Below are positions 285-28,255 of a stretch of DNA of 39,686 nt, piece after piece. Both the position numbers and the translations under genes were made by a program. Source of the DNA: an uncultured Granulosicoccaceae bacterium (GTDB lineage: Bacteria; Pseudomonadota; Gammaproteobacteria; Granulosicoccales; Granulosicoccaceae). The notes under the pieces are model-generated. The model saw only the letters and a list, made by a program, of their open reading frames with translations, was not told the origin of the DNA and did no database searches. Position 1 is the stretch's first letter, and every line of letters begins with the position of its first letter. The stretch is taken from the NCBI GenBank assembly GCA_938003855.1, contig CALKXD010000273.1, forward strand, positions 1-39,686. Reading direction: 5' to 3'.

Positions 285-941
285 TTAGCCGGCGTAACTT
301 AGAACCAGACCATGGATGAGTCGAGTCCAGCCATCAATCACCACAAACAGAAATAACTTGATAGGCAGTGAGATGGTTAACGGGGACACCATGATAGCGC
401 CTAGAGCGATCAGGATATTTGAAACGACCAGATCAATGATAATAAATGGCAGGAAAACCAGAAAGCCGATTTCAAATGCTCTGGTGAGCTCGGAAACTAT
501 AAACGCTGGTATCAGGATAGAAAGATCATCACTTCTCACATCGGCCCGGGCATTGTCTGACCACAGTTTGTCGGCAGCCTCCATAAAAAAAGCTCGCTCC
601 CTTTCACTGGCAAACGCAATTAGATAGTCCTTTACTGGTGCTTTTGCGTCATCGTAGGCTACGCGCCAGTCTTCAATGCTTTGATAAGTCCGGCCCGGTG
701 TATCAAGTGAGTCCGTAACGTCACTGATTACCGGCTGCAGGATAAACAGTGAGATAGTAATCGCGACCGCATAGATGACAATGTTTGGTGGCACTTGCTG
801 CAGCCCTAGAGCATTCCTCAATAGCAGCAGGACCACGGTGATTTTGGCATAGGCGGTAACCATGACAGCGGCAAATGGCACAATGGCAACACCGACCAGC
901 AGTATTATGAAGGAATACGGATCTGGCAGCAGTTCATTCAT
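285..941 (-). CDS. sctR: T3SS export apparatus protein SctR (YscR/HrcR/FliP family)
   Basis: This 218-residue integral membrane protein forms the core of the export gate with SctS and SctT. The first helix spans about residues 10-45 (IILLVGVAIVPFAAVMVTAY, then KITVVLLLLRNALG). A second follows near residues 55-75, then a central periplasmic stretch of roughly 80 residues. Two C-terminal helices carry the family segments ILIPAFIVSELTRAFEIGF and MVSPLTISLPIKLFLF. Length matches the family at about 215-220. Its ATG overlaps the sctQ stop in an ATGA arrangement, which indicates translational coupling. There is no N-terminal cleavable signal like that of many FliP proteins, and the neighbours are all T3SS genes, so the injectisome paralogue is favoured. 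Confidence 0.96.
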   Translation of the reverse strand: MNELLPDPYSFIILLVGVAIVPFAAVMVTAYAKITVVLLLLRNALGLQQVPPNIVIYAVAITISLFILQPVISDVTDSLDTPGRTYQSIEDWRVAYDDAKAPVKDYLIAFASERERAFFMEAADKLWSDNARADVRSDDLSILIPAFIVSELTRAFEIGFLVFLPFIIIDLVVSNILIALGAIMVSPLTISLPIKLFLFVVIDGWTRLIHGLVLSYAG

Positions 942-1171
942 GCAGCAAGCTCATCAATGCTGACAACGAGTCGGTTATCGATTTCGACTATGCGCCCATG
1001 GGCAATCAGCTGTTTATCTGCGTAGACACCAATGGGTGAGCCAGGCACCTTTACATCAATGGATGTACCGGCCTTCAGATCAGCTGCATCTTGCTGTGTT
1101 ATCCGGGTTTCACCGTAAATCAGGCTGAGTTGTATCTCATCTGGACCGGGCTCTGCGAAGTTAGGTTCCAT
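938..1171 (-). CDS. Possible internally initiated short form SctQ-C (SpoA domain only)
   Basis: This is an alternative translation product within sctQ. The ATG at 1169-1171 (codon 259) is in frame and has AGGA four bases upstream. Translation from it gives 77 residues, almost exactly the C-terminal SpoA domain. Short C-terminal forms made by internal initiation are known for YscQ, Spa33 and SsaQ, and in Pseudomonas syringae the two parts are separate genes. The assignment is inferred from the ribosome-site spacing and domain boundary, not proven. Confidence 0.5.
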   Translation of the reverse strand: MEPNFAEPGPDEIQLSLIYGETRITQQDAADLKAGTSIDVKVPGSPIGVYADKQLIAHGRIVEIDNRLVVSIDELAA

Positions 1172-1945
1172 CGTTTCCTGGAGTTCTGACGTAAGATGTA
1201 TTTGGTTGACTTGCAGACTTCCTGCCGCATTCTGTCCATTTTCCAGTAAAAGTGTGACGAAATTCGCCTGTAGCAATGTTTTATCAACAATAAGACAGTC
1301 TTCCGGCTCAAGACTGGCGAGGGCATCACGGGTGATGTTCACCATGCCGTACAGACATTGTGCAGTGAGTAAGTCGCTCGCGCTGTCCCCGGTGATTACC
1401 GGCTCTTCATGAGCCAGTAGCCGACAAAGGCTAGACAGGGTTGCGGTGCCAATTCTCAGGCCCAGTGGATAGCTCATGCCGTCGGCGTCTTCTATTTCAA
1501 ACCCGAATAGATGGAAGTCCGGCTGGGAGCGGTTGGCAAAGATACGGGCAGCGGCGATGGCAGTGGTGCTGTCATAGGCGTGGCTGACGACAAGTCTGGT
1601 ATCGGATTTCGCTTCTATCGCAGCCAGCAAATCACTGAGTATGGCCTCGAAAAACAACCCTCGGTAGGCGTCCGGTACGTCAATCAGGGCTATATCTGCG
1701 TGTTGAGCGCTTAGGTTTTTAATGAGTTGTCCCGGTGCTTCAACCCAGGCCTCTGCGCCATCTATAGTCAGCGCAAAAACGATAGGGTGGCTGGCGCGGT
1801 CGGTAGCGGCGGGGCCGGTGATTTTATACCTCGAATCGCCAATGAAAAATTCGTTTTCTTGTTGGCTACCGTGTAACCAATCGAGGAGATCTTCCTGATT
1901 TGATTGTTCGAACGGAAGTTTGGTCGGAAGAGTCTGTTGAGTCAT
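938..1945 (-). CDS. sctQ: T3SS sorting-platform / C-ring protein SctQ (YscQ/HrcQ)
   Basis: This 335-residue cytoplasmic sorting-platform protein corresponds to flagellar FliM/FliN. The last 70 or so residues form a SpoA (surface presentation of antigens) domain, from DEIQLSLIYGETRIT through VPGSPIGVYADKQLIAHG to the acidic end. The N-terminal part is poorly conserved, as usual for SctQ, and has a possible second SpoA-like fold near residues 140-230. The start at 1945 lies 11 bases after the sctO stop. An in-frame ATG at codon 259 (1169-1171) is preceded by AGGA at four bases and could give a separate 77-residue SpoA-only product, listed separately. SctQ interacts with SctL and SctK encoded nearby. 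Confidence 0.9.
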   Translation of the reverse strand: MTQQTLPTKLPFEQSNQEDLLDWLHGSQQENEFFIGDSRYKITGPAATDRASHPIVFALTIDGAEAWVEAPGQLIKNLSAQHADIALIDVPDAYRGLFFEAILSDLLAAIEAKSDTRLVVSHAYDSTTAIAAARIFANRSQPDFHLFGFEIEDADGMSYPLGLRIGTATLSSLCRLLAHEEPVITGDSASDLLTAQCLYGMVNITRDALASLEPEDCLIVDKTLLQANFVTLLLENGQNAAGSLQVNQIHLTSELQETMEPNFAEPGPDEIQLSLIYGETRITQQDAADLKAGTSIDVKVPGSPIGVYADKQLIAHGRIVEIDNRLVVSIDELAA

Positions 1946-1956
1946 ATCGGCCGTGC

Positions 1957-2436
1957 TCAGGGTTGTGGTTGTGACTGGGCGGCGGGGATTTCCTCTACCT
2001 TCTTCTCTTCATTGCGTTCTTGATCTTTTCGGGTCTGTTCATTCTGGTTTTCCAGTAAATGTTCAAACTTCTGTACTCCGCGTGCTTCGTTCAGTCGTGC
2101 GGCACGTGCTTCTTCCCAGGCTTTGGCCTGTTGGCTGGTGCTGTTTTGAGCTTTGGTTAATTGCTGTGACTTTGCCTGAACCTGCTCCGCCATCCGCAGT
2201 ATCTCGGCACGGTTTTTTTCCAGTGATAACCGGTCGGTTTCTATACCTGTACTCGTGGAGTAGATTTCCTGTTGGCGCGTGCTTTTGTACTCTGAATAGG
2301 AGTTGAGGTCTTGCTGTGCCTCTGCCTCGCGTGATTTGGCCTCCTGCAGTCGTTCTTTTTCTTTGTTCGCACGCAGTGTTTTTGTTAGTTCGCGCTGGCG
2401 TCGAATTTTTAACAACTCTTTGTACTGTTCACTCAT
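1957..2436 (-). CDS. sctO: T3SS stalk protein SctO (YscO-like, coiled coil)
   Basis: This 159-residue protein is strongly charged and almost wholly predicted helical, with two long heptad-bearing stretches (about residues 5-50 and 65-130) and a Pro/Gln-rich tail. It matches the YscO/FliJ family in size, charge and position directly after sctN. FliJ/YscO is the coiled-coil stalk that inserts into the ATPase hexamer and links it to the SctV ring. The start ATG overlaps the sctN stop by four bases. The family has little sequence conservation, so synteny is the strongest support. The gene expected next, sctP (needle-length ruler), is absent: only 11 bases separate sctO from sctQ. Confidence 0.85.
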   Translation of the reverse strand: MSEQYKELLKIRRQRELTKTLRANKEKERLQEAKSREAEAQQDLNSYSEYKSTRQQEIYSTSTGIETDRLSLEKNRAEILRMAEQVQAKSQQLTKAQNSTSQQAKAWEEARAARLNEARGVQKFEHLLENQNEQTRKDQERNEEKKVEEIPAAQSQPQP

Positions 2437-3791
2437 GATTGCAGCTGCATCAGATCGTTCATTGATTGTTCAAAACTGTACAGGTCAGAGACGGGTTGTC
2501 TGAGGAAATTCATGATGAGTTCACGCTTTGCTATCGCTTCATCTGCCAATGGGTCAGAGCCGTTGGCGTACTCTCCGACTTTCAGTAGAAGTTCTATGTC
2601 GTCGTATTTTGCGAGCAATCGCTTCACGTGTGAGGCAGCCTCTGCGTGCTCGTAGTTGATCACTGATCCCATAACGCGACTGTCAGATTTCAATATATCA
2701 ATGGGCGGGAAGTTGCCCTGCTGCGAGAGTTTTTTCGACAGCACAATGTGTCCGTCTACTAATGAGCGCATTTCATCGGCAATGGGCTCGTCGAGATCGT
2801 CTCCCTCCACCAGAACCGTATAGAATGCAGTGATAGAACCGCTGTTAAATTTACCGGCTCGTTCTACGAGTTGCGGCATTGCGGCAAACACTGACGGTGG
2901 GAAGCCCCTGCGTGTTGCGGGTTCTCCGGCAGCCAGGCCAACCTCTCGCAACGCTCTTGCGAATCGCGTGACGCTGTCCATTAATAGCAGCACCCGATTA
3001 CCCTGATCAGCAAAGTACTCGGCAATAGTTGTTGCGGCGTGGGCGGCTTTGATGCGTTCCATGGCGGGTTTGTTGGAAGGCGAAGCGACAACCACAGTGC
3101 GCTTCATGCCTTCCTCGCCAATGTTCTGGTAAATAAAATCCCTGACCTCGCGACCGCGTTCACCAATGAGGCCGATCACGATGACATCTGCCGCTGTGCC
3201 TCGGGCGATAGAACCTAGCAGAGTCGACTTCCCACCCCCCGCTGCGGAGAAGATACCGAGCCTTTGCCCTTCGGCACAGGTTAATAATGAGTCTATAGAA
3301 CGTACACCGACCGGTAGCACTTGGTCGATCATCGGCCGTTGCATGGGATCGGGAGGGTTGCGTATCAAGGAGTAATAGTCGTGTACCTCCAGTGGCCCGC
3401 GCGGGTCGTCATAGCTGACTTCACCGAAGCCATTGAGCACCCTGCCGAGTAGGTCCGATCCAACGGCGACCATCTGTGCATTACGTGTTCTGATGACTTC
3501 CGAGCGAGTAGAAAGACCGCGGATATCGCCGAACGGTGTCAGCAATGCCATCTCTTCTGAAAAGCCGACTACCTCTGCGTACAGTTCCACATTGGTTTCA
3601 GCGTCTCGCAACAGGCAGATTTCACCCAGCGTTGCGTCCGGGCTGATGGCATGGATCATAGTCCCGACGATTTTTGAGATGCGACCATTATGTTCGAGGG
3701 TTTCAACCGACTCGATGGTGTTGCTTAAGCGAGTACGCAAGTCACCGAGGTTCTCTTGTTGACTGTCTGACATCTGCTTAGCTGCATCCAC
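2433..3791 (-). CDS. sctN: T3SS ATPase SctN (YscN/HrcN/FliI family)
   Basis: This 452-residue hexameric ATPase unfolds and hands substrates to the export gate. The N-terminal beta-barrel covers about residues 30-105. The Walker A motif AAGGGKST lies at residues 183-190, the catalytic-glutamate segment GLIGERGREVRDF at about 207-219, and Walker B (LLLMD) at about 268-272. An arginine-rich segment ATRRGFPPSVF follows in the usual place, and the C-terminal substrate-recruiting domain ends near LMQLQS. Residues 1-6 may be extra: a second Met at residue 7 begins a family-like N terminus. The gene sits six bases after the sctL stop and overlaps sctO by four bases. The GERGREV segment and context exclude an F1 beta subunit. 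Confidence 0.98.
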   Translation of the reverse strand: MDAAKQMSDSQQENLGDLRTRLSNTIESVETLEHNGRISKIVGTMIHAISPDATLGEICLLRDAETNVELYAEVVGFSEEMALLTPFGDIRGLSTRSEVIRTRNAQMVAVGSDLLGRVLNGFGEVSYDDPRGPLEVHDYYSLIRNPPDPMQRPMIDQVLPVGVRSIDSLLTCAEGQRLGIFSAAGGGKSTLLGSIARGTAADVIVIGLIGERGREVRDFIYQNIGEEGMKRTVVVASPSNKPAMERIKAAHAATTIAEYFADQGNRVLLLMDSVTRFARALREVGLAAGEPATRRGFPPSVFAAMPQLVERAGKFNSGSITAFYTVLVEGDDLDEPIADEMRSLVDGHIVLSKKLSQQGNFPPIDILKSDSRVMGSVINYEHAEAASHVKRLLAKYDDIELLLKVGEYANGSDPLADEAIAKRELIMNFLRQPVSDLYSFEQSMNDLMQLQS

Positions 3792-3797
3792 TCTGAT

Positions 3798-4418
3798 TCA
3801 ATTCCCGTTATGGAAGGCGAAATTGCGTTGTAGTATGTCGAGCTGCGCATCTAGGCTGGCGCGAGTTATTCCGCGTTGCGTCTGTATGATGCAGTCTGTG
3901 GTCGACAAGGTCTGATCGGCGATGATTGTTACCGATGAGGCGTCATAGTTTGTGTCGGCCAGTTTATTATTCAGGCTGACGCGAGTGTATTCAGCCATGT
4001 CCGGGTGAATTTTGATGGTGATCTGTCGTTCTTCGCGGAAGCGTTCGAAGGCCTTGGTCACGATTGCTGCAATGCGTTCTTTTTCAGGTAATTCGTCTAT
4101 AACCTTACGAGTAGTTGCAACCACCAGATTGAGGAAGTCCGGTTCCAGTTCTCGCAGTTGCTGGTTGACCAGAGCGGAAACACTGATGTCTTGTTCTACT
4201 CTTTCGCGTTCTGCCAGTTTTGTTGCGTTGTCGTAGGCCTCCTGATGAACCCGCACCGCGTCTTCACGTGCTTTGGCGACAATGTCTTTCGCTTCTGCCT
4301 TGGCAGCTTGCAGATAGGCTGCCCCCTCTGTCCAAAGTGAGACATCTTTTGCTTTGACAACATTGCCTTGCGGTTCGAACCTGGGAGTACCGTCTAGTTT
4401 TTCTTCGTGTTCAGGCAT
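3798..4418 (-). CDS. sctL: T3SS ATPase regulator SctL (YscL/HrpE/FliH family)
   Basis: This 206-residue protein (from the chosen start) is the peripheral stator that connects SctN to SctQ. The first part is a long charged helix (AAYLQAAKAEAKDIVAKARED) like the b-subunit-type stalk of FliH and YscL. The C-terminal part (about residues 95-206) is the globular NolV/HrpE-type domain, ending in the family-like segment DCIIQTQRGITRASLDAQLDIL. The frame is open to 4553, which would give 251 residues, but the extra 45 residues lie entirely inside sctK, have no family resemblance and lack a better ribosome site. The ATG at 4416-4418 gives the usual family length. No strong Shine-Dalgarno is visible, so coupling to sctK, which it overlaps by 25 bases, is likely. 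Confidence 0.9.
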   Translation of the reverse strand: MPEHEEKLDGTPRFEPQGNVVKAKDVSLWTEGAAYLQAAKAEAKDIVAKAREDAVRVHQEAYDNATKLAERERVEQDISVSALVNQQLRELEPDFLNLVVATTRKVIDELPEKERIAAIVTKAFERFREERQITIKIHPDMAEYTRVSLNNKLADTNYDASSVTIIADQTLSTTDCIIQTQRGITRASLDAQLDILQRNFAFHNGN

Positions 4419-5092
4419 ATAGGTACGAATTTCTCTGCGGCTAATTTGAGAGCATGCAAGCCCGTTGTGGAGGCTGTGGCATTGATGAATAGCTTTTTTG
4501 GAAACCTGAGTTTGACTCGTGTTGCCAATCCTGCTGGTAGCTGATTTAACCACTCCCTTAAGAGGGATATAGAGTCTTTCTCGAGTAACAAAAGAAATTG
4601 ATGAAACTTTGGTGTTACATCGTGTTCAACCGAATTCTCATGGCTCTGTAAAGCAAACTCGAAGCCATCCTGTCCAACAAGATTTGCAATTTTATGCGCT
4701 TCGGTGCCGTCAATGAAGCGCCGCGCAATTATATTATGCCTCGACAAGGTCGCTATACGACTAACCCGTAACAGATCTTTGCTATCCAGCAAAGCGAGTT
4801 GCTGCAGCGGGCTTTGGAAGTCAAAGTGATACTGCTCGTGCAAGCGATACGAATTAGAAATCACATCGGATAGTCGTTGCTTTGATCTTGGGTGAGCCAG
4901 TAAAAACTTGGCGAGCTTTTCGGATGGGCCGTTTTCGTCGAGACTGAGGTACTGATGGTGTGCGTAATTCCCAGGTGAGAAATTAAACTCCAGCACTGTG
5001 TTCTTCAGTGTTGATGGTATATTTTTTACGGCTTCGAGTTGATCGGCATCAAGCTGTTGATTAACCATGGAGGGCGTTATCCGCTGTGTCAT
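4394..5092 (-). CDS. sctK: T3SS sorting-platform accessory protein SctK (YscK-like)
   Basis: This 232-residue cytoplasmic protein is placed between sctJ and sctL, as yscK is. SctK forms the outer pod contact between SctQ and the inner ring protein SctD. The N-terminal segment EFNFSPGNYAHHQYL fits the conserved start of the YscK family (Phe-x-Pro followed by Tyr/His). The middle holds a leucine-rich helical part (QQLALLDSKDLLRVSRIATL). The gene is visibly AT-rich: the 60 bases at 4561-4620 contain only 20 G or C. It overlaps sctL by 25 bases at its 3' end. The ATG at 5092 lacks a clear Shine-Dalgarno. A second Met at residue 9 is possible. Confidence 0.85.
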   Translation of the reverse strand: MTQRITPSMVNQQLDADQLEAVKNIPSTLKNTVLEFNFSPGNYAHHQYLSLDENGPSEKLAKFLLAHPRSKQRLSDVISNSYRLHEQYHFDFQSPLQQLALLDSKDLLRVSRIATLSRHNIIARRFIDGTEAHKIANLVGQDGFEFALQSHENSVEHDVTPKFHQFLLLLEKDSISLLREWLNQLPAGLATRVKLRFPKKLFINATASTTGLHALKLAAEKFVPICLNTKKN

Positions 5093-5170
5093 TAACCGTT
5101 GTCGTACAAAATCTGTGCAAGAGACGCTGTTTAGATCCTATCGGGTTTCACAGCGTCAATGCGCATCGGG

Positions 5171-6001
5171 CTATCTTGCGTAGGTCCGCGGGTTTCCTGA
5201 GCGGCCAAACAACAGAAAAATCAGAGTCAGGATAGCCATTATTGCTAATCCGCCCAGTATATACAGTGTTAGAAGCAGTGAGTTTGCGCTTTGCTTGTGA
5301 ACTAAAAAGCCTGCAACCTTTGTAAAGCTATTTGCTGCTATTTCATTGTTCATAGCTGCGCTGCCGCCATCACTAGGGCCGTCTAGAGTCAGTGCTGCCA
5401 TCGATGAAGTGGATTTCATCGGTTCGGCATCATCGGCGGGAAACAGGGCAACAGATACTTTGTCGTATACCAAGCCTTCGACACTGTTAGTGACTAAAAG
5501 CTTGATTTGCGTCGACAGCTTACTGACGCTTGCTCCCGGACGATGTCGAATAAAAACCGAGGCTGAGGAGGGGATGTTTCTCTCGAGTGGGGAAAAATTC
5601 TCTGGCAGCACAACCTGTACTCTTGCCTGCAGCACCCCGTCGATTTGGCTGATAGTGTCTGAAAGCTCCTGGCTTAGCCCGTAGGCAAAGCGTGCGCGTT
5701 CTTCCATCGGGGACGATATCAAGCCGTCCTTCTTGAAGATTTGACCGATATTCTCGAACTGAGCGCGTGGCAGGCCGTTGCGTTTGAGTAACGAAACGGC
5801 CTCTGCGAATTCTCCTTCCTCGACAAACAGCGTGCTTGTTTTGTCTTTGCTTACTTCTTTGCTGCTGGAAATGCCGTTGTCGATCAGAACAGCGAGCATC
5901 TCATTGACCTCGCGTTCTGACAGGCCGGTATACAGTTCCGTCTTGCAAGCGACCAGCAACAGCGTTGTGCATGCCAGCAGTAAGACTTTATGGAAGGACA
6001 T
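5171..6001 (-). CDS. sctJ: T3SS inner-membrane ring lipoprotein SctJ (YscJ/HrcJ)
   Basis: This 276-residue protein forms the inner of the two inner-membrane rings of the basal body. A type II signal peptide is clear: a short basic start, a hydrophobic run and the lipobox LVAC with Cys19. Two periplasmic ring-building domains follow (about residues 22-75 and 95-180), with the family motifs LSEREVNEM, NGLPRAQFENIGQIF and GVLQARVQVVLPE. One C-terminal membrane helix covers about residues 242-265, ending in a short basic tail. The ATG at 6001 has GGGGA about five bases upstream. It sits 20 bases after sctI. The 78-base gap to sctK is the largest inside the operon. Confidence 0.97.
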   Translation of the reverse strand: MSFHKVLLLACTTLLLVACKTELYTGLSEREVNEMLAVLIDNGISSSKEVSKDKTSTLFVEEGEFAEAVSLLKRNGLPRAQFENIGQIFKKDGLISSPMEERARFAYGLSQELSDTISQIDGVLQARVQVVLPENFSPLERNIPSSASVFIRHRPGASVSKLSTQIKLLVTNSVEGLVYDKVSVALFPADDAEPMKSTSSMAALTLDGPSDGGSAAMNNEIAANSFTKVAGFLVHKQSANSLLLTLYILGGLAIMAILTLIFLLFGRSGNPRTYAR

Positions 6002-17485: not shown

Positions 17486-18235
17486 ATGGCCGTGATCTGG
17501 CAGAAAAAAGTGTCGGCAAACCACTATGAGGTGCGGACAGCCGGAAATTCCGTTCGGTTATATAAAAATGGTGTTTTCCACTCGCAGTGGAATGACCAGA
17601 GACCATTGTCGAACGGGGTCTGGGATCTGTTGTTTCTGCCAGCTCTGTTTTATCCGGTACAGCGTGTCAAGCGGGTGTTGGTGCTGGGCGTCGGTGGCGG
17701 CGCAGTAATTAATCAGTTTTCCTGTTTGCTCCAGCCGGAGACAATTATCGGGGTGGAGCTTGATCCCGTGCACCTGATGGTTGCCCGTCGATTCTTTGGC
17801 GTCAATGGCAACGCGGTGGAATTGGTGGAGGCCGATGCGCTGAGTTGGCTGGCAAATTATCGTGGTGAGAAATTCGATATCATTATTGAGGATCTGTTCA
17901 CCGAAGTAGATGGCGAGCCTGTGCGGGTGGCACCTGCCGGTGAAGCATGGCTTTCGGCGCTACTCAGTCACCTGCAACCCCACGGCAGTCTGGTTATCAA
18001 CTTTGAAGATGCAGCGCAAATGCGAAACAGTACGCCGCCTTATCTTGCCTGCAAGGGTGAGCGCCCTGATGCCAGATTCCGGTTTACACAACCCAGCTAT
18101 GGCAACAGTGTCTGTGCGTTCATGGGGCAGGAGGGTTCTGTGCCGTGGCTGAGAAAGCAACTTGATGTTGCTCTCGCGCCGTATCCTGCCTGCCGCGCGA
18201 CCGGGCAGAAGTTTAAAATCAGAAGAGTCAAATAA
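17486..18235 (+). CDS. Spermidine-synthase-like SAM-dependent methyltransferase-fold protein
   Basis: This 249-residue protein has the Rossmann fold used by spermidine synthases and methyltransferases. The glycine-rich motif I is RVLVLGVGGGAVINQF at about residues 62-77, the acidic end of strand 2 is IGVELDP near 88-94, and FDIIIEDLF occupies the motif IV position. It has a short N-terminal beta-rich part, as in SpeE-like proteins, but lacks the normal SpeE catalytic Asp-rich loop. A polyamine-synthase role is therefore doubtful and the substrate is unknown. It is divergent from mtaB across 69 bases. The ATG at 17486 has no strong ribosome site. Confidence 0.7.
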   Translation: MAVIWQKKVSANHYEVRTAGNSVRLYKNGVFHSQWNDQRPLSNGVWDLLFLPALFYPVQRVKRVLVLGVGGGAVINQFSCLLQPETIIGVELDPVHLMVARRFFGVNGNAVELVEADALSWLANYRGEKFDIIIEDLFTEVDGEPVRVAPAGEAWLSALLSHLQPHGSLVINFEDAAQMRNSTPPYLACKGERPDARFRFTQPSYGNSVCAFMGQEGSVPWLRKQLDVALAPYPACRATGQKFKIRRVK

Positions 18236-18315: not shown

Positions 18316-18321
18316 TATAAT
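18316..18321 (+). promoter_or_regulatory. Probable -10 box of the promoter for the giant coiled-coil gene
   Basis: TATAAT at 18316-18321 lies 106 bases before the ATG at 18427. The base run CTTACT at 18294-18299, 16 bases upstream, could act as a weak -35. The rest of the 191-base gap (18236-18426) contains an AAGAGGA ribosome site just before the start and a small 6-base hairpin GCGAAA/TTTCGC at 18239-18255 without a T-run. Confidence 0.5.
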
Positions 18322-18426
18322 GGCGCTGATGTGAGTACGGCAATCTGTTGATTGGCCGCTGCGAAATGCCAGCCAGATTCGGTTGGCGGCAGTCACTTAG
18401 CAGTACTATTTCAAGAGGATTTGTAA

Positions 18427-21400
18427 ATGGCTGACAACCAGCAAGATGACAGGAAAACACTGCGCGACGGGCACGCGGTCTATCGCGAAGATATTCGCGA
18501 CAAACATTTGCTGCCAGATGAGCCAAATGTCCGTAAATCCCTGAAATACGGGGCGGTTGGTTTATTGGGTATCGGGGTTGTCGGCATGTGGTCTGGCAAC
18601 GTGCAGCGCGAAGGCCAACTAGCAGAGATCTCAAGAGAAAAAGCACAGGTTGACAGTGAGGTAGTACAGCTGACGAGCACTCTGGACGAAGCAACTGGAA
18701 AAGTTGAAGACTACCAAGCGCAAATTGCAGAATTGAAAAAACAAGTTCAGAGCGCGACAGCAAAGCTCGAAGAGACCGTATCGGACCGTGACTCAAAGCT
18801 GGCCGAGGCTGGAGAGCAGGTGGCGGTTTTGGAACAGCAGATTGTCGAGAAAGAGACAGCGATAACCGAATTGCAGGGTTTGCAGTCATTGGTTGAATCG
18901 CAAATCGGACAGATTTCCGAGCTGGAAGCGATAAAAACGGAGGCCGTCACTGAGATCACATCTCTACGCAGAAAAACGTCTGTGGTGGATTCCCTGCAAG
19001 CGGAAATTGCTGAGCTAACCACCGCGCGCGGTGCCATGGAATCGCGGCTGGTTGATATCGACACGCGTTCGATTGATCTGGCTGAGCGAACGAACACAGT
19101 GACACAAGAACGCGATGATGCCTTGCAGAAACTTGCTGAACTTGATGCAGAAAAGCAAGGAATGGTGTCTGAGCTTGGAATGCTGCGTTCAAGCCTTGCG
19201 GATGGGGCTGAAGCGGCCGACACCCTGAAGCAATCCTATGCTGACCTCGAAGCACAGTCGAACGGGAAATTGTATGAGCTGGAAGGCCAAATCACCGCTC
19301 TGACGGAGGAGTTAGGCGACGGTGAGGCGAAACGAGAAAATCTGCAAAAAAAAGTGGCGGAGCTCAATCAGCAACTTGACGGGATCACCGCAGAAAAGAA
19401 TTCGCTGCAGGCTGAGCTGGCCAGTGGCACGACCCAGATTCAGGTGCTGGGCGCTGAGCGGGATTCTCTGGCCGAGGCACTGGCCACACAGAAGCTTCAA
19501 AGCGCCAACAAAATCGAGGAAGCCGTTGCATCATTTGGTCTGATGTCGACTGAACGGGATGGACTGCAGCAGCAACTGTCGTTGGTCAGTGGCGAGTATG
19601 AAAGCAGCAAAAAGGCGGCAGAAGGTACCATTGCGGATCTTGAAGGCGAGGTTGATGCGCTTAGCAAAGAAGTCGTTAATTTAACGCAGGCGCGTGATGC
19701 GCTGAAGGCAGAAAAAGCCCAGGTTGAGTCTGACCTGGCTGCTTTGTCAGAAGACAGTGAAACTCAGATCGCCTCTTTGACCTCGGAGCGGGATGCGGTG
19801 GCGGGTAACCTTGAGGCATTACAAGCAGACAGTTCCGGCCAGATCAACGAACTGCAATCTCAGGTTAATGGTTTATCGCAGCAAGTGGCTGACCTGACTT
19901 CAGCGAAAGATGTGCTTATCGAAGAAAAAACCAAGGTTGAAACAGATCTCGCTACCTTGATCGAGGAAAGCTCAGGCCAGGTGTCTGCTCTGACATCAGA
20001 GCGTGACGGGATCAGCGACAAGCTTGATCTGTTGCGCGGCGAAAGTTCAGTGAAAATTTCGGGTCTCGAAGATCAGGTGGGCGGCTTGACTCAGGAGGTA
20101 GCCGAACTCACGGCGGTTAGAGATGCACTGAAAGCAGAAAAAACACAGGTTGAGACTGAGCTTGCAGCGCTGCGCGACAGTAGCACTGCGAAAATAACCG
20201 GTCTTGAAGAGCAGGTAGATACACTTTCGCAAGAAGTCGCCTCTCTGGCGGCAACGCGCGACAGCTTGACGGCTGAACAAACCAAAATCGAAGCGGAACT
20301 GGCATCGGTAACGGAGCAGAAGGTGTTAGCAGAGACAGAGCTGACCTCTTTGGCTGATAGCAGTTCCGGTCAAATCACCGCACTGGCAGCCGAGCGCGAA
20401 GATATTGCGGGTCGATTGCAATTGTTAACTGAAGCCAGTGGATCAGAAATTACCGGATTACGCGCGCAGGTCACTGATCTGACCGGGCAGGTTTCTGATC
20501 TTTCGGCGCAACGTGACACCATGGTCGCCGAACTTGAAGCGTTGCAGGATGAAAAGCAGAAGCTGGCAGCAGAAAGCGAAAGTAAACTTGGATTATTTCA
20601 GGCTGATGTCATGCAGCTGACCAAAGAACGTGACGACATGACTTCACGGTCTGATGCCTACCGTGCTGAGACGCAGGCGACTCTGGCGATGCTGGAGTCA
20701 GATATTGATGACTTAAACGGGCAGATAGAAACACTGGCAGCTGAGCGCGGGGCGCTGGAAAAACGCAACCTCGAAGGTGAGCAGTCTCTGGCAGATCTGC
20801 GTGGTGAACGGGATGTGATTCAAGCGCGTCTGGACGAACTCGCCGCGAGTGGCTCAGAAAAAATAGAGAGCTTGCAGGGGCAGATTGCATCGATGGAAGG
20901 AGAGCTCTCGGATTTGACCGCGGAACGTGATCGGCTCAATACTGACTTACAAGCTGCTGCAGAGAACAACTCGTTGCTCAGTAGCTCACGCGATATGGTG
21001 AGCAGGGAGAAATCGCTGCTGCAGGGAATCGTCGACAGTGAGCGGGCCGCCGGTCAAGAAAAGAGAGTACAGCTGGAAGAGCAGGTGGCTGCCCTGAACA
21101 CAGAGCTCAGCGCCGTCAAAGCCAGTGAGCAGGAGGCCGCAGCGCAGGTGGCCGATATGGACCGCCAACTCAATGAAATGAGGCTGGCAAGAGATTCTGT
21201 CGCCACAGAGCGCAACGGTTTGTTTTCGCAAATACAGAGCAGTCAAGCGCAGATTGGTGAGTTGGACAGTTTACTGGCCGATCTGAACCTTCGTCTAGCC
21301 AGCGATGCCGAGCAGCGCTCTTCGTTGCAACAGGAGCTGGATGGTTTAAAGCTGGAAAATTCCCAGCGTGTAGCTTCGTTACAGGCCACAGTGGATGAGC

Positions 21401-23070
21401 TAAGTAATCAGAATTCGACCATTCTGGAAGACCGCGCAGCTATGGAGGCAAAGCTCAATGCTGCGCTGGCTGACAGTACCAATGCCTCTACCGCGCTGGA
21501 AGCACAATTGCTGGAGGTGTCTCAGCGTCGGGATGCTCTGTTGGCAGAGTTGGAAAGCCTCAACGCCGACAATTCAGCAACGCTTGATAAACTGAACGGT
21601 GATCTTGGTGCCTTGACTCAAGCAAAGGCAGCCGCGGACAAGGAGCTTGCCGAGGTGGTGGCGGCCAAGTCGGCGGTTGAGGGCGAACTCGCCGATGCGT
21701 TAGCTGCCAGGACAGCTATTGAGGGTGAGCTTGCCGATGCTGCGCAAGCCAAAGCGGCGGTTGAGAGTGAGCTCGCCGGTGTAACGGAGGCTAAGGTTGC
21801 GTTGGAAAGCGAGCTTGCCAGTGTCACTGATGCGAAGGCTGCTGTAGAGAGTGAACTTGCCGGTGTTGCAGAGGCTAAGGTTGCCCTGGAAGCTGAACTT
21901 GCCAGTGTCACGGAAGCCAAGGCTGCCGTAGAGAACAACCTTGCCAGTGTCACAGCTGCCACGGCTGCGGTGGAGAGTGAGCTTGCACGTATGGCGGCAG
22001 CACAGACTGCTGTTGAGAGTGATTTGGCCGGTGTGGTCGATGAGAAAGCAGGGCTTGATGCCGACTTTGCAGCGCTGGCCGCAGAGAAAGCCGCAACCGA
22101 AGCTGAGCTTGCCGGGCTGGTGGAAGCTAAGGCGGGGCTCGACGCTGAACTTGAAGCGGCACTCAGCAAGGCCACGGAGCTTGCTGCAACCGGAAAAAGT
22201 CTTGCCGAGGAACGGGACTACCTGCTTGGTTTACTGGATAATGAGCGAGATTTGCTGCACGCAGCAACGACAGACAAGGAAGCTCAGAGTGAGCGTATCG
22301 CTGACCTGGACGGCGAGCTTGTTGCGCTCAAGGGCGAGCTTGAAACTGCCCGGGCAGCCAGCGAGCAACGTGGTGATCAGACACAGATGCTTGAAACTCA
22401 GGTAGATAAATTTGAGGGACAAATTGACAAGCTGAACACGCAGCTGTCGGCGCTGTCTGAGTCGCGGGATGCAGCACGACGAGAGCTTGATGATTTACGT
22501 AGTAATCTTGACAACGCGGAAGAGCAGTTAATTAGCTCGCGTCGTGAGATTGATCAGTTGATGGCGGTGAAAGTATCAACTGAAGATAAGTTACGCGCCG
22601 ATCAGGTAAGAGCGATCGATGTTGGTGAGTCTGTGACAACGAGCTTGCTGGATGCGGGTGTTAACGATGCTACGGTGCGGGTAAGAAGTGATAATTCGAT
22701 CGGTATTCGAGTCGCCAGTGGCAGCTTGTTTACGACGGGAAGTACAACGGTGAGTCCCGAAGGACAATCGGTGCTGGGTATCGTTGGTGACACGATCGGT
22801 GGTTATGATGACTACGGCATTCGTGTTGAAGGCCACACTGACAACATCCCCATAGGTGAAGCACTGGCACAGGTCTACAAGAGCAACTGGGAACTATCGG
22901 TGGCGCGGGCTGCGTCAGCGGTTCGGTATCTGAGCAGTCAGGGCGGGATCGAAGCCAATCGTATGTCTGCGGTAGGTTTTGGCGAGTACAATCCCGTGGC
23001 CGATAATGAGACCGATGCCGGTCGCGAGCAGAACCGTCGTGTCGAGATAGTGCTTTACCCGAGACGATAG
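18427..23070 (+). CDS. Giant membrane-anchored coiled-coil protein with MotB/OmpA-type peptidoglycan-binding domain
   Basis: This 1547-residue protein starts with about 40 polar cytoplasmic residues, then one membrane helix at about 41-55 (GAVGLLGIGVVGMW). There is no cleavable signal. Residues 60-1400 or so are an almost unbroken heptad-rich coiled coil of Glu, Leu, Ala, Gln and Ser. The last 130 residues are an OmpA/MotB domain: VEGHTDNIPI with Asp1472, SNWELSVARAASAVRYL with Arg1494, and GFGEYNPVADNETDAGREQ, the pattern that holds the peptidoglycan peptide. The inferred layout is cytoplasmic N terminus, periplasmic rod and wall-bound C terminus. The coil contains two repeat families, listed separately. 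A good ribosome site (AAGAGGA) precedes the ATG. Its function is unknown; envelope spacing, anchoring of a large machine or cell-shape work are guesses. Confidence 0.9.
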   Translation: MADNQQDDRKTLRDGHAVYREDIRDKHLLPDEPNVRKSLKYGAVGLLGIGVVGMWSGNVQREGQLAEISREKAQVDSEVVQLTSTLDEATGKVEDYQAQIAELKKQVQSATAKLEETVSDRDSKLAEAGEQVAVLEQQIVEKETAITELQGLQSLVESQIGQISELEAIKTEAVTEITSLRRKTSVVDSLQAEIAELTTARGAMESRLVDIDTRSIDLAERTNTVTQERDDALQKLAELDAEKQGMVSELGMLRSSLADGAEAADTLKQSYADLEAQSNGKLYELEGQITALTEELGDGEAKRENLQKKVAELNQQLDGITAEKNSLQAELASGTTQIQVLGAERDSLAEALATQKLQSANKIEEAVASFGLMSTERDGLQQQLSLVSGEYESSKKAAEGTIADLEGEVDALSKEVVNLTQARDALKAEKAQVESDLAALSEDSETQIASLTSERDAVAGNLEALQADSSGQINELQSQVNGLSQQVADLTSAKDVLIEEKTKVETDLATLIEESSGQVSALTSERDGISDKLDLLRGESSVKISGLEDQVGGLTQEVAELTAVRDALKAEKTQVETELAALRDSSTAKITGLEEQVDTLSQEVASLAATRDSLTAEQTKIEAELASVTEQKVLAETELTSLADSSSGQITALAAEREDIAGRLQLLTEASGSEITGLRAQVTDLTGQVSDLSAQRDTMVAELEALQDEKQKLAAESESKLGLFQADVMQLTKERDDMTSRSDAYRAETQATLAMLESDIDDLNGQIETLAAERGALEKRNLEGEQSLADLRGERDVIQARLDELAASGSEKIESLQGQIASMEGELSDLTAERDRLNTDLQAAAENNSLLSSSRDMVSREKSLLQGIVDSERAAGQEKRVQLEEQVAALNTELSAVKASEQEAAAQVADMDRQLNEMRLARDSVATERNGLFSQIQSSQAQIGELDSLLADLNLRLASDAEQRSSLQQELDGLKLENSQRVASLQATVDELSNQNSTILEDRAAMEAKLNAALADSTNASTALEAQLLEVSQRRDALLAELESLNADNSATLDKLNGDLGALTQAKAAADKELAEVVAAKSAVEGELADALAARTAIEGELADAAQAKAAVESELAGVTEAKVALESELASVTDAKAAVESELAGVAEAKVALEAELASVTEAKAAVENNLASVTAATAAVESELARMAAAQTAVESDLAGVVDEKAGLDADFAALAAEKAATEAELAGLVEAKAGLDAELEAALSKATELAATGKSLAEERDYLLGLLDNERDLLHAATTDKEAQSERIADLDGELVALKGELETARAASEQRGDQTQMLETQVDKFEGQIDKLNTQLSALSESRDAARRELDDLRSNLDNAEEQLISSRREIDQLMAVKVSTEDKLRADQVRAIDVGESVTTSLLDAGVNDATVRVRSDNSIGIRVASGSLFTTGSTTVSPEGQSVLGIVGDTIGGYDDYGIRVEGHTDNIPIGEALAQVYKSNWELSVARAASAVRYLSSQGGIEANRMSAVGFGEYNPVADNETDAGREQNRRVEIVLYPRR
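19630..20448 (+). repeat. Coding repeats of about 71 residues within the giant coiled-coil gene
   Basis: Four related consecutive segments encode residues 402-472 (71), 473-543 (71), 544-589 (46) and 590-674 (85). Each begins with a pattern like I-x-x-L-x-x-Q/E-V-x-x-L-S/T-Q-E/Q-V-x-x-L and continues with R/K-D-x-L-x-x-E-x-T/A-K/Q-V/I-E-x-x-L. The third lacks the terminal 25 residues containing TSERD. The fourth has 14 extra residues, equal to the unit of the second repeat family. A fifth, weaker start (ITGLRAQVTDLTGQV) begins at residue 675. Confidence 0.8.
21619..22164 (+). repeat. Thirteen tandem 42-base (14-residue) coding repeats
   Basis: Thirteen in-frame units of exactly 14 residues cover residues 1065-1246, each close to the form x-AK-A-A-V-E-S-E-L-A-x-V-x. 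Two heptads per unit keep the coiled-coil register. Units 5-8 alternate between EAKVALESELASVT-like and AKAAVESELAGVA-like forms, so a 28-residue (84-base) higher-order duplication is visible. The DNA is also alike between units, which suggests recent expansion. Confidence 0.9.
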
Positions 23071-23101: not shown

Positions 23102-23139
23102 GCGAGAGACAGGGATGGGCCTGTCTCCGCTGTTTATCT
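23102..23139 (+). terminator. Probable intrinsic terminator after the giant coiled-coil gene
   Basis: The stem is GAGACAGG (23106-23113) pairing with CCTGTCTC (23120-23127) around a six-base loop. It is extended by GCG/CGC (23102-23104 and 23128-23130) with one bulged A, and followed by TGTTTATCT. It lies 32 bases after the stop codon. The T-tract is interrupted, so termination may be partial. Confidence 0.6.
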
Positions 23140-25432: not shown

Positions 25433-28255
25433 TTGCGAAAATTAAAATTGGGCTTTCTGGTGTTTTCCCTGGCGCTTGCCGTGTTACCTGCTCGTGCGCA
25501 GGAGGCCAGTGTTGAGTGGTCGGGGGTAATCGCCAAAGCGGTGCCTTCGGTGGTGTCTTTGCAGATCTCCTATGTGCGCGATTTTGTTGAAGCGGATCAA
25601 GGGGTGAGTTCTGCAACCGGGTTTGTGGTCGATGCCGAAAAGGGCATAATTTTGACGAACCGGCATGTGGTTGGTGCCGGTCCGGTTGCCATCACCGCGA
25701 CCTTTCAAAATCTCGAGCGAATAGACGTGGTTCCGCTGTACCGGGATCCGGTGCATGATTTTGGTTTTTTGCGGTATGACCCCAATGAGCTAAAACGTAA
25801 TGCGCCTGAGTCATTGACGCTTAACCCGGCGGGTGCGGCGGTTGGGACCGATATACGTGTGATAGGCAGTGATGGTGGTGAGCAGTTGTCAATTCTGGCG
25901 GGAACGATAGCGCGCGTCGATCGGCGTGCTCCGAATTATGGTCGCTATGGCCACAATGATTTCAATACCTTTTATTTGCAGGCGGCTTCGTCAACGTCTG
26001 GTGGATCCTCCGGCTCTCCGGTGCTGAATCAATCAGGAGAAGTCATTGCTTTAAATGCTGCGGCAAACAGCAGCACGGCAAGCAGTTTCTTTCTGCCGCT
26101 GGACAGAATTAAATACGCGCTGGAAAAACTCCAGGCGGGTGAGCCTGTCGCACGCGGTACTGTGCAAACGGTATTTGAGCAGCGTCCGTTTCGGTTGCTG
26201 AGCCGGTTGGGGTTGAGTGACGATGTTGCACAGCGTATCCAGCAGGAGTTTCCGCAAAGTAACGGCATGCTGCTGGCCAGGCAAATACTGGTCGGTGGTG
26301 TTGCTGAACAGAGTCTGCAGGAAGGGGATATTCTGCTGGCGATCAACGGTCAGCCGGTCCCCGAATTTATTCGCCTGGCGGAGATTCTGGATTCGTCGAT
26401 TGGAAAGGAGATCGAGTTTTCTGTCATTCGACAAGGGCAGACGGTGGTCGAGAAAGTTGTTGTGCAGGATATGGAGTCCCTGCAACCCAGGCGACTGGTG
26501 GAGTTGGGTGGATCGGTTTTCCATAATGTTTCCGTGCAGCGAGCGCGTGGCATGAATCTGCCGCAGCGTGGTGTGATCGTGGCCAAATCCGGTTATGAGT
26601 TTGCCCGGGCAGGTGTGCCTCGTGATGCACTGATCACTGAGCTGAATGGACTGCCGGTCAACACCGTAGAAGACTTACTGGAGACAATCCGCACAGCCAC
26701 CGGAAGCACCGAGTGGCGGCTGCGCTTTATAGAGCCGGGTAGAGAGTTTACTTCGGCTGTGGCGCGTGTCGATATCAATAGTAAATGGTTTGGTGCAAAA
26801 ACCTGTGATCAGCGCGATGACGTCCGTTTCTGGGCGTGCGAGGCTGTGGAAGTGTCGGAAAGTAGTGAACCCCCAAAGCCACTCACCAACGTTGTATTGC
26901 CCGGCTATAAAGATCCACGTATTCAGGCCGTAGCGCCCTCGTTGGTGCGATTGTCGTTTGATATACCGCATGCGGTTGATAACGTTTATGCCAAGAGTTT
27001 TAGTGGAGTAGGCTTGATCGTTGATGCAGAGCGAGGGCTGGTGGTTACGGATCGAAATACTGTGCCTATTGAGTTGGGTGATCTGGAAATGACTTTTTTC
27101 TCAACCTACAAAATACCCGGGCGAGTTGCGTATTTACATCCTTTGCACAATATAGCGTTGCTGGAATACGACCCGTCATTGCTTGGTGATGTGACGATAA
27201 AACCGTTGCCATTGGCGGACAGCTTTCCTGCGCTGGATAACCCGCTCGAGTTAATTGGTTATCGAAATGACGGCACTATTCGAAAGCAAAATGTACCGAA
27301 TCCCTCTGAAGTAACTTTGTACTTCAGTCTTCCGCAGCTGTCTCGCTTCCAGCAAGTGCCGATTGATGTTCTCAGTGTCGCGCTGCCGGGTCCGACCCTG
27401 GGTGGTCCGCTGGTCGATGGGGATGGCGTTGTGCAGGCGTTGTGGCAGAGTTTTGCCTATCAGGACGGTGACGATATCAAGGAAGCTGAGTGGGCAATGC
27501 CCGCTGCAATGGTGCGCAGAGTGGTTGAGCAATATTTGAGTGAAAAGCCGTTTTATGTTGCCCCGGCGATGTTCCAGTACAAGTCGCTTGATCTGGCCAG
27601 AGAGCAAGGCCTGGCGGACGAATGGATTGCAAAAATAGCGGCGTCAGGTGTCGAGCATCGGCGCGCTATTTCAATTAGTCAGGTCGTCGGTACAGCTGCT
27701 AATTCGCTTAAGACCGGGGATATACTTCTTGACGTTGATGGGCAGCTGCCATCTACTCTGAGTGAACTTGAAGCGCTGTTTCAAAGGGAGCGCGTCAGTG
27801 TGCTGGTGCTGCGCAACGGGCAGGAAATCAGTGTGGAAGTCACCCCCATTGAGCATGCCCGGCAGGGTACCGACCGGGCTCTCCTCTGGGCTGGGTCTCT
27901 GATTCAGGAAGCGCACTTTGAGCTGGGGTATCAGCGTGGCAACATTACCGAAGGAGTCTTCATCAGCGGCACTCTGAGCGGTTCTCCTTCGATCCAGGAT
28001 CGGCTCTACCGCAATCGATTTATTGTCGCTGTTGAAGGTGTACCGATAGCTTCTATCGACGACTTTATCTCCGAGGTTGCTAAGAAAGATCCAGCCGATC
28101 CTGTGCGTCTCACGGTGGTTGCAATGAACGGTTATCGTTCGGTGGTCAGTATTCAGCCTGAGTATAATTTCTGGCCGACCACGGAACTCTGGCGAACGGA
28201 TTCCGGCTGGCAGCGAAGAAATCTGAATCCGGATACCGTGGCGGTTGTAGATTAG
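25433..28255 (+). CDS. Periplasmic Deg7/Nma111-like protein: active and dead trypsin-type domains plus PDZ domains
   Basis: This 940-residue protein begins with a Sec signal peptide: basic RKLK, a hydrophobic run, and cleavage likely after ARA at residue 22. Domain 1 (about 30-235) is a DegP-type protease with a full triad: His78 in TNRHVVG, Asp109 in VHDFGFL and Ser193 in GGSSGSP. Two PDZ-like domains follow (about 255-345 and 355-445). Domain 2 (about 497-705) has the same fold, but the triad positions are Asn542, Asn573 and Leu656, so it cannot be catalytic. Two more PDZ-like segments end the protein. This is the layout of plant Deg7 and yeast Nma111. Translation starts with TTG at 25433, with GGA seven bases upstream. 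The likely role is periplasmic protein quality control. Confidence 0.85.
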   Translation: MRKLKLGFLVFSLALAVLPARAQEASVEWSGVIAKAVPSVVSLQISYVRDFVEADQGVSSATGFVVDAEKGIILTNRHVVGAGPVAITATFQNLERIDVVPLYRDPVHDFGFLRYDPNELKRNAPESLTLNPAGAAVGTDIRVIGSDGGEQLSILAGTIARVDRRAPNYGRYGHNDFNTFYLQAASSTSGGSSGSPVLNQSGEVIALNAAANSSTASSFFLPLDRIKYALEKLQAGEPVARGTVQTVFEQRPFRLLSRLGLSDDVAQRIQQEFPQSNGMLLARQILVGGVAEQSLQEGDILLAINGQPVPEFIRLAEILDSSIGKEIEFSVIRQGQTVVEKVVVQDMESLQPRRLVELGGSVFHNVSVQRARGMNLPQRGVIVAKSGYEFARAGVPRDALITELNGLPVNTVEDLLETIRTATGSTEWRLRFIEPGREFTSAVARVDINSKWFGAKTCDQRDDVRFWACEAVEVSESSEPPKPLTNVVLPGYKDPRIQAVAPSLVRLSFDIPHAVDNVYAKSFSGVGLIVDAERGLVVTDRNTVPIELGDLEMTFFSTYKIPGRVAYLHPLHNIALLEYDPSLLGDVTIKPLPLADSFPALDNPLELIGYRNDGTIRKQNVPNPSEVTLYFSLPQLSRFQQVPIDVLSVALPGPTLGGPLVDGDGVVQALWQSFAYQDGDDIKEAEWAMPAAMVRRVVEQYLSEKPFYVAPAMFQYKSLDLAREQGLADEWIAKIAASGVEHRRAISISQVVGTAANSLKTGDILLDVDGQLPSTLSELEALFQRERVSVLVLRNGQEISVEVTPIEHARQGTDRALLWAGSLIQEAHFELGYQRGNITEGVFISGTLSGSPSIQDRLYRNRFIVAVEGVPIASIDDFISEVAKKDPADPVRLTVVAMNGYRSVVSIQPEYNFWPTTELWRTDSGWQRRNLNPDTVAVVD

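Follow-up and report, generated by a model that had tools for sequence, protein, structure and literature searches.

How is a coiled-coil protein accommodated in the periplasm, when its rod would be several times longer than the gap between the membrane and the wall? This question is raised by one gene in the window, that is, the whole stretch of 39,686 nucleotides analysed here, which comes from an uncultured Granulosicoccaceae bacterium (contig CALKXD010000273.1). A sequence-only reading had proposed an inner-membrane helix, about 1340 residues of coiled coil and a peptidoglycan-binding OmpA domain, and this anatomy was confirmed: the coil comprises about 1333 proline-free residues, and the C-terminal domain matches PF00691 (E-value 1.5e-16; 61 bits against the cutoff of 27.2; positions 1-98 of the 98-position profile). 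The gene, its domains and its flanking signals are listed below.

18316-18321, forward strand: TATAAT, -10-like and a weak candidate for an own promoter, 5' of the gene (direct sequence reading)
18413-18419, forward strand: AAGAGGA, Shine-Dalgarno-like (direct sequence reading)
18427-23070, forward strand: whole gene for membrane helix, giant coiled coil and OmpA domain, ATG start, 1547 residues (ORF call, Pfam, hydropathy, dN/dS)
18427-18546, forward strand: N-terminal tail, residues 1-40, predicted to be cytoplasmic, with conserved GHAVYREDIRDxHLLPDEPxxRKS (10-genome alignment)
18547-18600, forward strand: Gly-rich signal-anchor or transmembrane helix, residues 41-58 (hydropathy peak of the protein; conserved Gly-rich pattern)
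18613-22611, forward strand: coiled-coil rod, residues 63-1395, acidic, heptads with +4 stutters (composition, COILS-type scan, register analysis)
22726-23037, forward strand: OmpA-like domain, predicted to bind peptidoglycan, residues 1434-1537, motif SNWELSVARAxxAVRYL (PF00691)
23106-23127, forward strand: terminator-like hairpin 3' of the gene (the count of such sites is not above that in shuffles)

The open reading frame at 18427-23070 is real, under selection and family-wide. The TATAAT element is weak as a promoter because it is absent from the list of the promoter scan, which detected no promoter above chance. The encoded protein contains no Cys in all 1547 residues and no proline between residues 34 and 1443. 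For two orthologs of equal length, dN/dS was 0.03-0.09 in each of seven blocks spanning the whole protein, the ratios being rough because dS approaches or exceeds 1 in several of them; since every block gave such a low ratio, the coil is not a free-running filler. On these sequence comparisons, the giant protein is under strong purifying selection along its whole length, coil included.

Both ends of the protein carry features of attachment. The N-terminal block includes 18 invariant columns in the 10-genome alignment, and on reading the N-terminus no good signal-peptidase site was found. The helix that follows, YGAVGLLGIGVVGMW, is short, Gly-rich and weakly hydrophobic in the window species, and it could not be called a strong anchor from its own sequence alone because its Kyte-Doolittle 19-residue mean is only 1.25; the assignment is supported by the sister-genus proteins, which at the same locus and the same position have strongly hydrophobic anchors (1.9-2.3). 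At the other end, the motif N-x2-LS-x2-RA of the OmpA domain is invariant in seven orthologs, and the modelled C-terminal domain of an ortholog resembles MotB-type structures as well as the peptidoglycan-bound OmpA structures 3td4 and 3td5; the domain is thus predicted, from sequence and model, to be a peptidoglycan binder. Since this domain is closest to MotB-type domains by both sequence and fold, we considered an energised stator or force-transducing subunit of the MotB, TolA, TonB or ZorB type. This reading is extremely improbable, because the membrane helix carries no Asp, and indeed no acidic residue at all in the window protein or in the orthologs, because no MotA/TolQ/ExbB-like neighbour was found among the proteins scanned (the neighbours being MtaB, a SpdSyn-like protein, LonN, NAGS and an HtrA-like protein), and because the NCBIfam MotB-type models score far below cutoff; with neither acidic transmembrane residue nor partner, it was rejected. 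The same genome contains 32 OmpA-domain matches in all, and other proteins combining a coil with an OmpA domain have 1155, 960 and 559 residues and, in one case truncated at the end of its contig, at least 1692 residues.

The survey of relatives and neighbours suggested by the sequence-only reading identified a syntenic protein of variable length in 41 of the 48 Granulosicoccaceae genomes. It is present as a single copy per genome and belongs to either of two N-terminal types, type 1 in 13 genomes and type 2 in the 28 others, without overlap. The search with the type-1 N-terminal block detected 12 genomes besides that of the window, 11 from the same genus and one from a neighbouring genus; six type-1 orthologs are complete, at 1124-1754 residues, and were aligned with the window protein, the others being cut by contig ends. 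When 84,980 named species were scanned, with one genome representing each, the matches came from metagenome-assembled genomes of Granulosicoccaceae, and the closest was 'Chromatiales bacterium (ex Bugula neritina AB1)'. The type-2 proteins of the species scan start with MFRDFEKxPSKSSYQLKF or a variant thereof, carry a strong transmembrane helix and are encoded by open reading frames of 1057-1759 residues. Two genomes of another gammaproteobacterial family encode membrane helix-coil-OmpA proteins of 1173 and 1042 residues at other loci.

Wherever flanks were examined, the order of genes was PDH - MtaB - giant - [UbiX] - LonN - NAGS - HtrA, with neighbours named by sequence motif and position for the type-2 loci and by Pfam/NCBIfam for the window. 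The giant gene is at this same locus in the type-1 genomes with enough flank, and the order including UbiX was found in 8 of 8 type-2 loci examined, followed by UbiH after HtrA in those that extend so far; a complete 7.78-Mb genome is among them, and the giant-bearing family thus includes a species with a complete genome. In the window's own genus, a SpdSyn-like gene lies between MtaB and the giant gene, and UbiX is missing 3' of it; this spermidine-synthase-like gene (window 17486-18235) is absent from the sister-genus loci examined. A Granulosicoccus homologue beside a SpdSyn-like gene was looked for and not found, because in Granulosicoccus the giant gene occupies the MtaB-UbiX-LonN locus. 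The OmpA domains of each N-terminal type cluster together in the domain tree, and the two types do not form one group; since the deep branches are weakly supported, the argument for orthology rests on synteny, not on this tree. With the same locus, an N-terminal anchor, a coil of more than 800 residues and a terminal OmpA domain, the window protein belongs to the giant family. Phage or mobile origin is not supported, given the stable synteny with housekeeping genes. As for the surroundings, the HtrA-like protein of 940 residues (window 25433-28255), conserved in the neighbourhood, combines a trypsin-like domain with several PDZ domains, and genes of type III secretion or flagellar export type (FliP/SctR, FliN-like, ATPase, YscJ/FliF) are located at the left edge of the window near the PDH cluster (285-6001, reverse strand).

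In contrast to the fixed place, the length drifts. Among 29 members the coil spans 890-1580 residues, corresponding to about 130-235 nm across the relatives, and a basal genus of the Granulosicoccaceae has, at the same locus, a 524-residue open reading frame with the same layout. Length changes cluster in three zones of the coil, both ends being conserved, and include the following two repeat zones.

19630-20340, forward strand: internal repeats of 71 residues (213 nt), a hotspot of indels among the orthologs (repeat search, ortholog alignment)
21643-22153, forward strand: tandem repeats of 14 residues (42 nt), a zone of lineage-specific expansion (repeat search, ortholog alignment)

The latter 42-nt repeat is expanded differently in the nearest relative. 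This variation bears on two of the possible roles. A radial spacer, placed in a periplasm of unusual width or in an envelope protrusion (stalk, pole or blebs), has a precedent in Thermotoga Omp-alpha, of which a 316-residue coil holds the toga off by about 50 nm (PMC3387000), but a set length would be expected of a spacer, against the range of coils found among relatives; the open-access literature searched yielded no images of the envelope in this family, and we regard this role as improbable. A length varying freely between fixed ends, with anchors at both, would agree with a slack tether, a reserve cable normally folded loosely at hinges that holds the inner membrane to the wall when the two separate, as in plasmolysis, in the sea or in other habitats of changing osmolarity, or at division septa; a stiff coiled-coil rod is, however, poor material for slack, and the coil is under strong purifying selection, so that this role is also distinctly unlikely. 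That the same chromosomal place is kept throughout this family of marine bacteria while length drifts suggests a strap along the wall.

Whether the coil could form such a long rod was examined from its heptad pattern. In a COILS-type scan with a hand-entered matrix, P exceeded 0.5 for 86% of the stretch from residue 63 to 1397, whereas shuffled sequences of equal composition gave 6-17%. Leu occupies 53% of the d positions in residues 63-1057, and L, V, I, R or K the a positions, a dimer-like pattern. Among register shifts, 16 of 19 in the window protein and 98 of 138 across ten orthologs were +4 stutters, which leave a coiled coil continuous, and none across the orthologs was +5 or +6; in block-shuffled controls +5 and +6 shifts occur freely, these controls keeping native stutters inside the blocks and the ortholog rows not being independent. 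The coil indels in the closest ortholog pairs are nearly all 0 or 4 modulo 7 (7, 14, 42, 25 and 11 residues), with 191 as an exception, a test that is partly circular because alignment of heptad repeats favours gaps in multiples of 7. As far as such patterns can tell, the stutter-dominated shifts and the heptad or heptad+4 indels favour a rod. Its length as a single straight helix, put near 200 nm by the sequence-only reading, is about 198 nm by arithmetic (about 1333 residues at 0.1485 nm); this is a maximum, for a rigid rod without interruption, because the coil has weak spots with P below 0.5 (169-179, 258-278, 353-387, 515-540, 645-676, 857-867 and others). Such a rod is indeed too long for a normal periplasm, when compared with the inner-to-outer membrane spacing of about 30-32 nm in E. 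coli under hyperosmotic conditions (PMC8824477).

The coil might alternatively turn back at hinges (e.g., near 258-278, 515-540, 645-676 and 824-906) into an antiparallel bundle of about 25 nm, making an ordinary radial connector between inner membrane and wall. One weak spot is of particular relevance.

19174-19266, forward strand: weak coil spot and candidate hinge, residues about 250-280, adjoining a conserved LKQSYAxLE patch (COILS dip, one AlphaFold break)

This dip recurs in 9 of the 10 orthologs scanned, and the AlphaFold model of one ortholog breaks its helix at 241-245, equivalent to window residues of about 253-261, so that the spot may be a real hinge. The structure prediction that had been proposed for detecting hairpins did give breaks. 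For window residues 348-1547 (mean pLDDT 60), AlphaFold places more numerous breaks, and the helices between them measure about 92-186 residues (14-28 nm), whereas the 1124-residue ortholog (mean pLDDT 65) is modelled with helices 59-240, 246-486 and 499-988, the last a continuous 490 residues (73 nm). Both models are of low confidence, with pLDDT around 60 or lower counting against the breaks, their break positions mostly differ, and a dimer is not visible in them. Register shifts are mostly +4, against the arbitrary shifts expected at loops, and the 191-residue length change at one site between orthologs would ruin matched hairpins. Folding back is on balance unlikely.

Among the three options left by the sequence-only reading, i.e., folding back, lying along the wall or serving an unusual envelope structure, the second thus fits best with the +4 stutters and the free length variation, while the first is represented by the low-confidence AlphaFold breaks. 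We therefore prefer, with about an even chance of being correct, an inner-membrane-anchored and wall-bound structural strap lying tangentially in the periplasm, because the ends are fixed, length drifts, register is kept, and coils of 890-1580 residues misfit a set radial distance. In the arrangement that we infer, including its topology, dimerisation, tangential placement and structural role, the single signal-anchor helix would fix the N-terminal end in the inner membrane, the conserved tail of 40 residues would lie on the cytoplasmic side, the chain would leave the membrane as a long alpha-helical coiled coil, most likely a parallel dimer, and the OmpA-like domain would grip peptidoglycan, joining a point of the inner membrane to a point of the wall up to about 200 nm away. 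Because the coil exceeds the distance between membrane and wall several-fold, such a rod must run largely tangential to the cell surface. It would serve not as a radial spacer but as a passive cytoskeletal element of the periplasm, by which the envelope is stiffened or organised or wall growth is guided. The coil length would be tunable by gain or loss of heptad-compatible repeats in a few hotspots, with both ends fixed. More tentatively, and with less than an even chance, the family may represent a specific periplasmic cytoskeleton of membrane-anchored, wall-clamped rods of 130-235 nm along the wall, setting cell shape or mechanics, that evolved as the repeats of a short connector were expanded heptad by heptad. 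Counting against the strap are the helix breaks of the low-confidence AlphaFold models and the weak hydrophobicity of the anchor in the window species; except for the HtrA-like protease further downstream, the neighbours are not envelope-shape genes.

The possibility that the giant protein is a variant of a known family was not borne out, as it fits no curated envelope family tested, its OmpA domain apart. The score for the peptidoglycan-binding protein NF006542 (PRK09039 type) was 131.7, below the cutoff of 388, and that for the crescentin rod Rod_CreS (PF19220) was 27.6 bits, far below 100. Generic coil models of Pfam exceeded their cutoffs marginally (APG6_N 51.7/45, CENP-F_leu_zip 34.6/34.5, SHE3 30.7/30, FlxA 27.5/26.3), no single matched stretch passing alone, and these scores are read as coil composition, not membership. 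Neither an SLH domain nor an outer-membrane barrel or anchor as in SlpA/OmpM and Omp-alpha was matched by Pfam in the giant protein, and the lipobox cysteine of PapS type is absent, in line with its zero Cys. The sequence-only reading knew of no described role for this architecture; we likewise found no settled function for the giant family, and no relevant paper on a giant protein of this layout or on a Granulosicoccus envelope structure in the open-access literature searched, but the layout itself is known.

Among the known systems, crescentin, whose Rod_CreS model matches the giant protein with the weak score given above, shares the long rod domain, but is cytoplasmic. The CrvA/CrvB periskeleton of Vibrio, a periplasmic coiled-coil element that runs along the wall and curves the cell, is alike by description, although we know of no OmpA domain or membrane anchor therein. 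In Thermotoga Omp-alpha (OmpA1), a long coil rod likewise connects a membrane anchor to a domain that binds the wall, but with an SLH domain, an outer-membrane anchor and 316 residues (PMC3387000), against the OmpA domain, the inner membrane and about 1333 residues of the giant protein. Deinococcus SlpA/OmpM, trimeric with an SLH domain, an outer-membrane beta-barrel and a coil of about 28 nm (PMC9388160), has in common a coil linking membrane to peptidoglycan with length variable between species. PapS of Rhodospirillum rubrum, an OmpA-like wall binder as well, is an outer-membrane lipoprotein described as forming static arrays that set cell shape by obstructing elongasomes, no giant coil being mentioned in the part of that report consulted (PMC11369160). 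Similar in layout are proteins of about 380-470 residues in other gammaproteobacteria, which share the N-terminal hydrophobic anchor, the coil and the C-terminal MotB/OmpA-like domain; the giant protein has three to four times their length, consists almost wholly of coil and lacks stator residues. An extended rod would connect inner membrane and wall over a long range within the periplasm and would exceed the Thermotoga spacer about fourfold in length, and the natural length variants, together with the short syntenic form in another genus, make tests of length against function direct. The combination of anchor, coil and wall binder is thus already known, and what distinguishes the giant protein is its length, beyond all the precedents compared, and its family-wide conservation.
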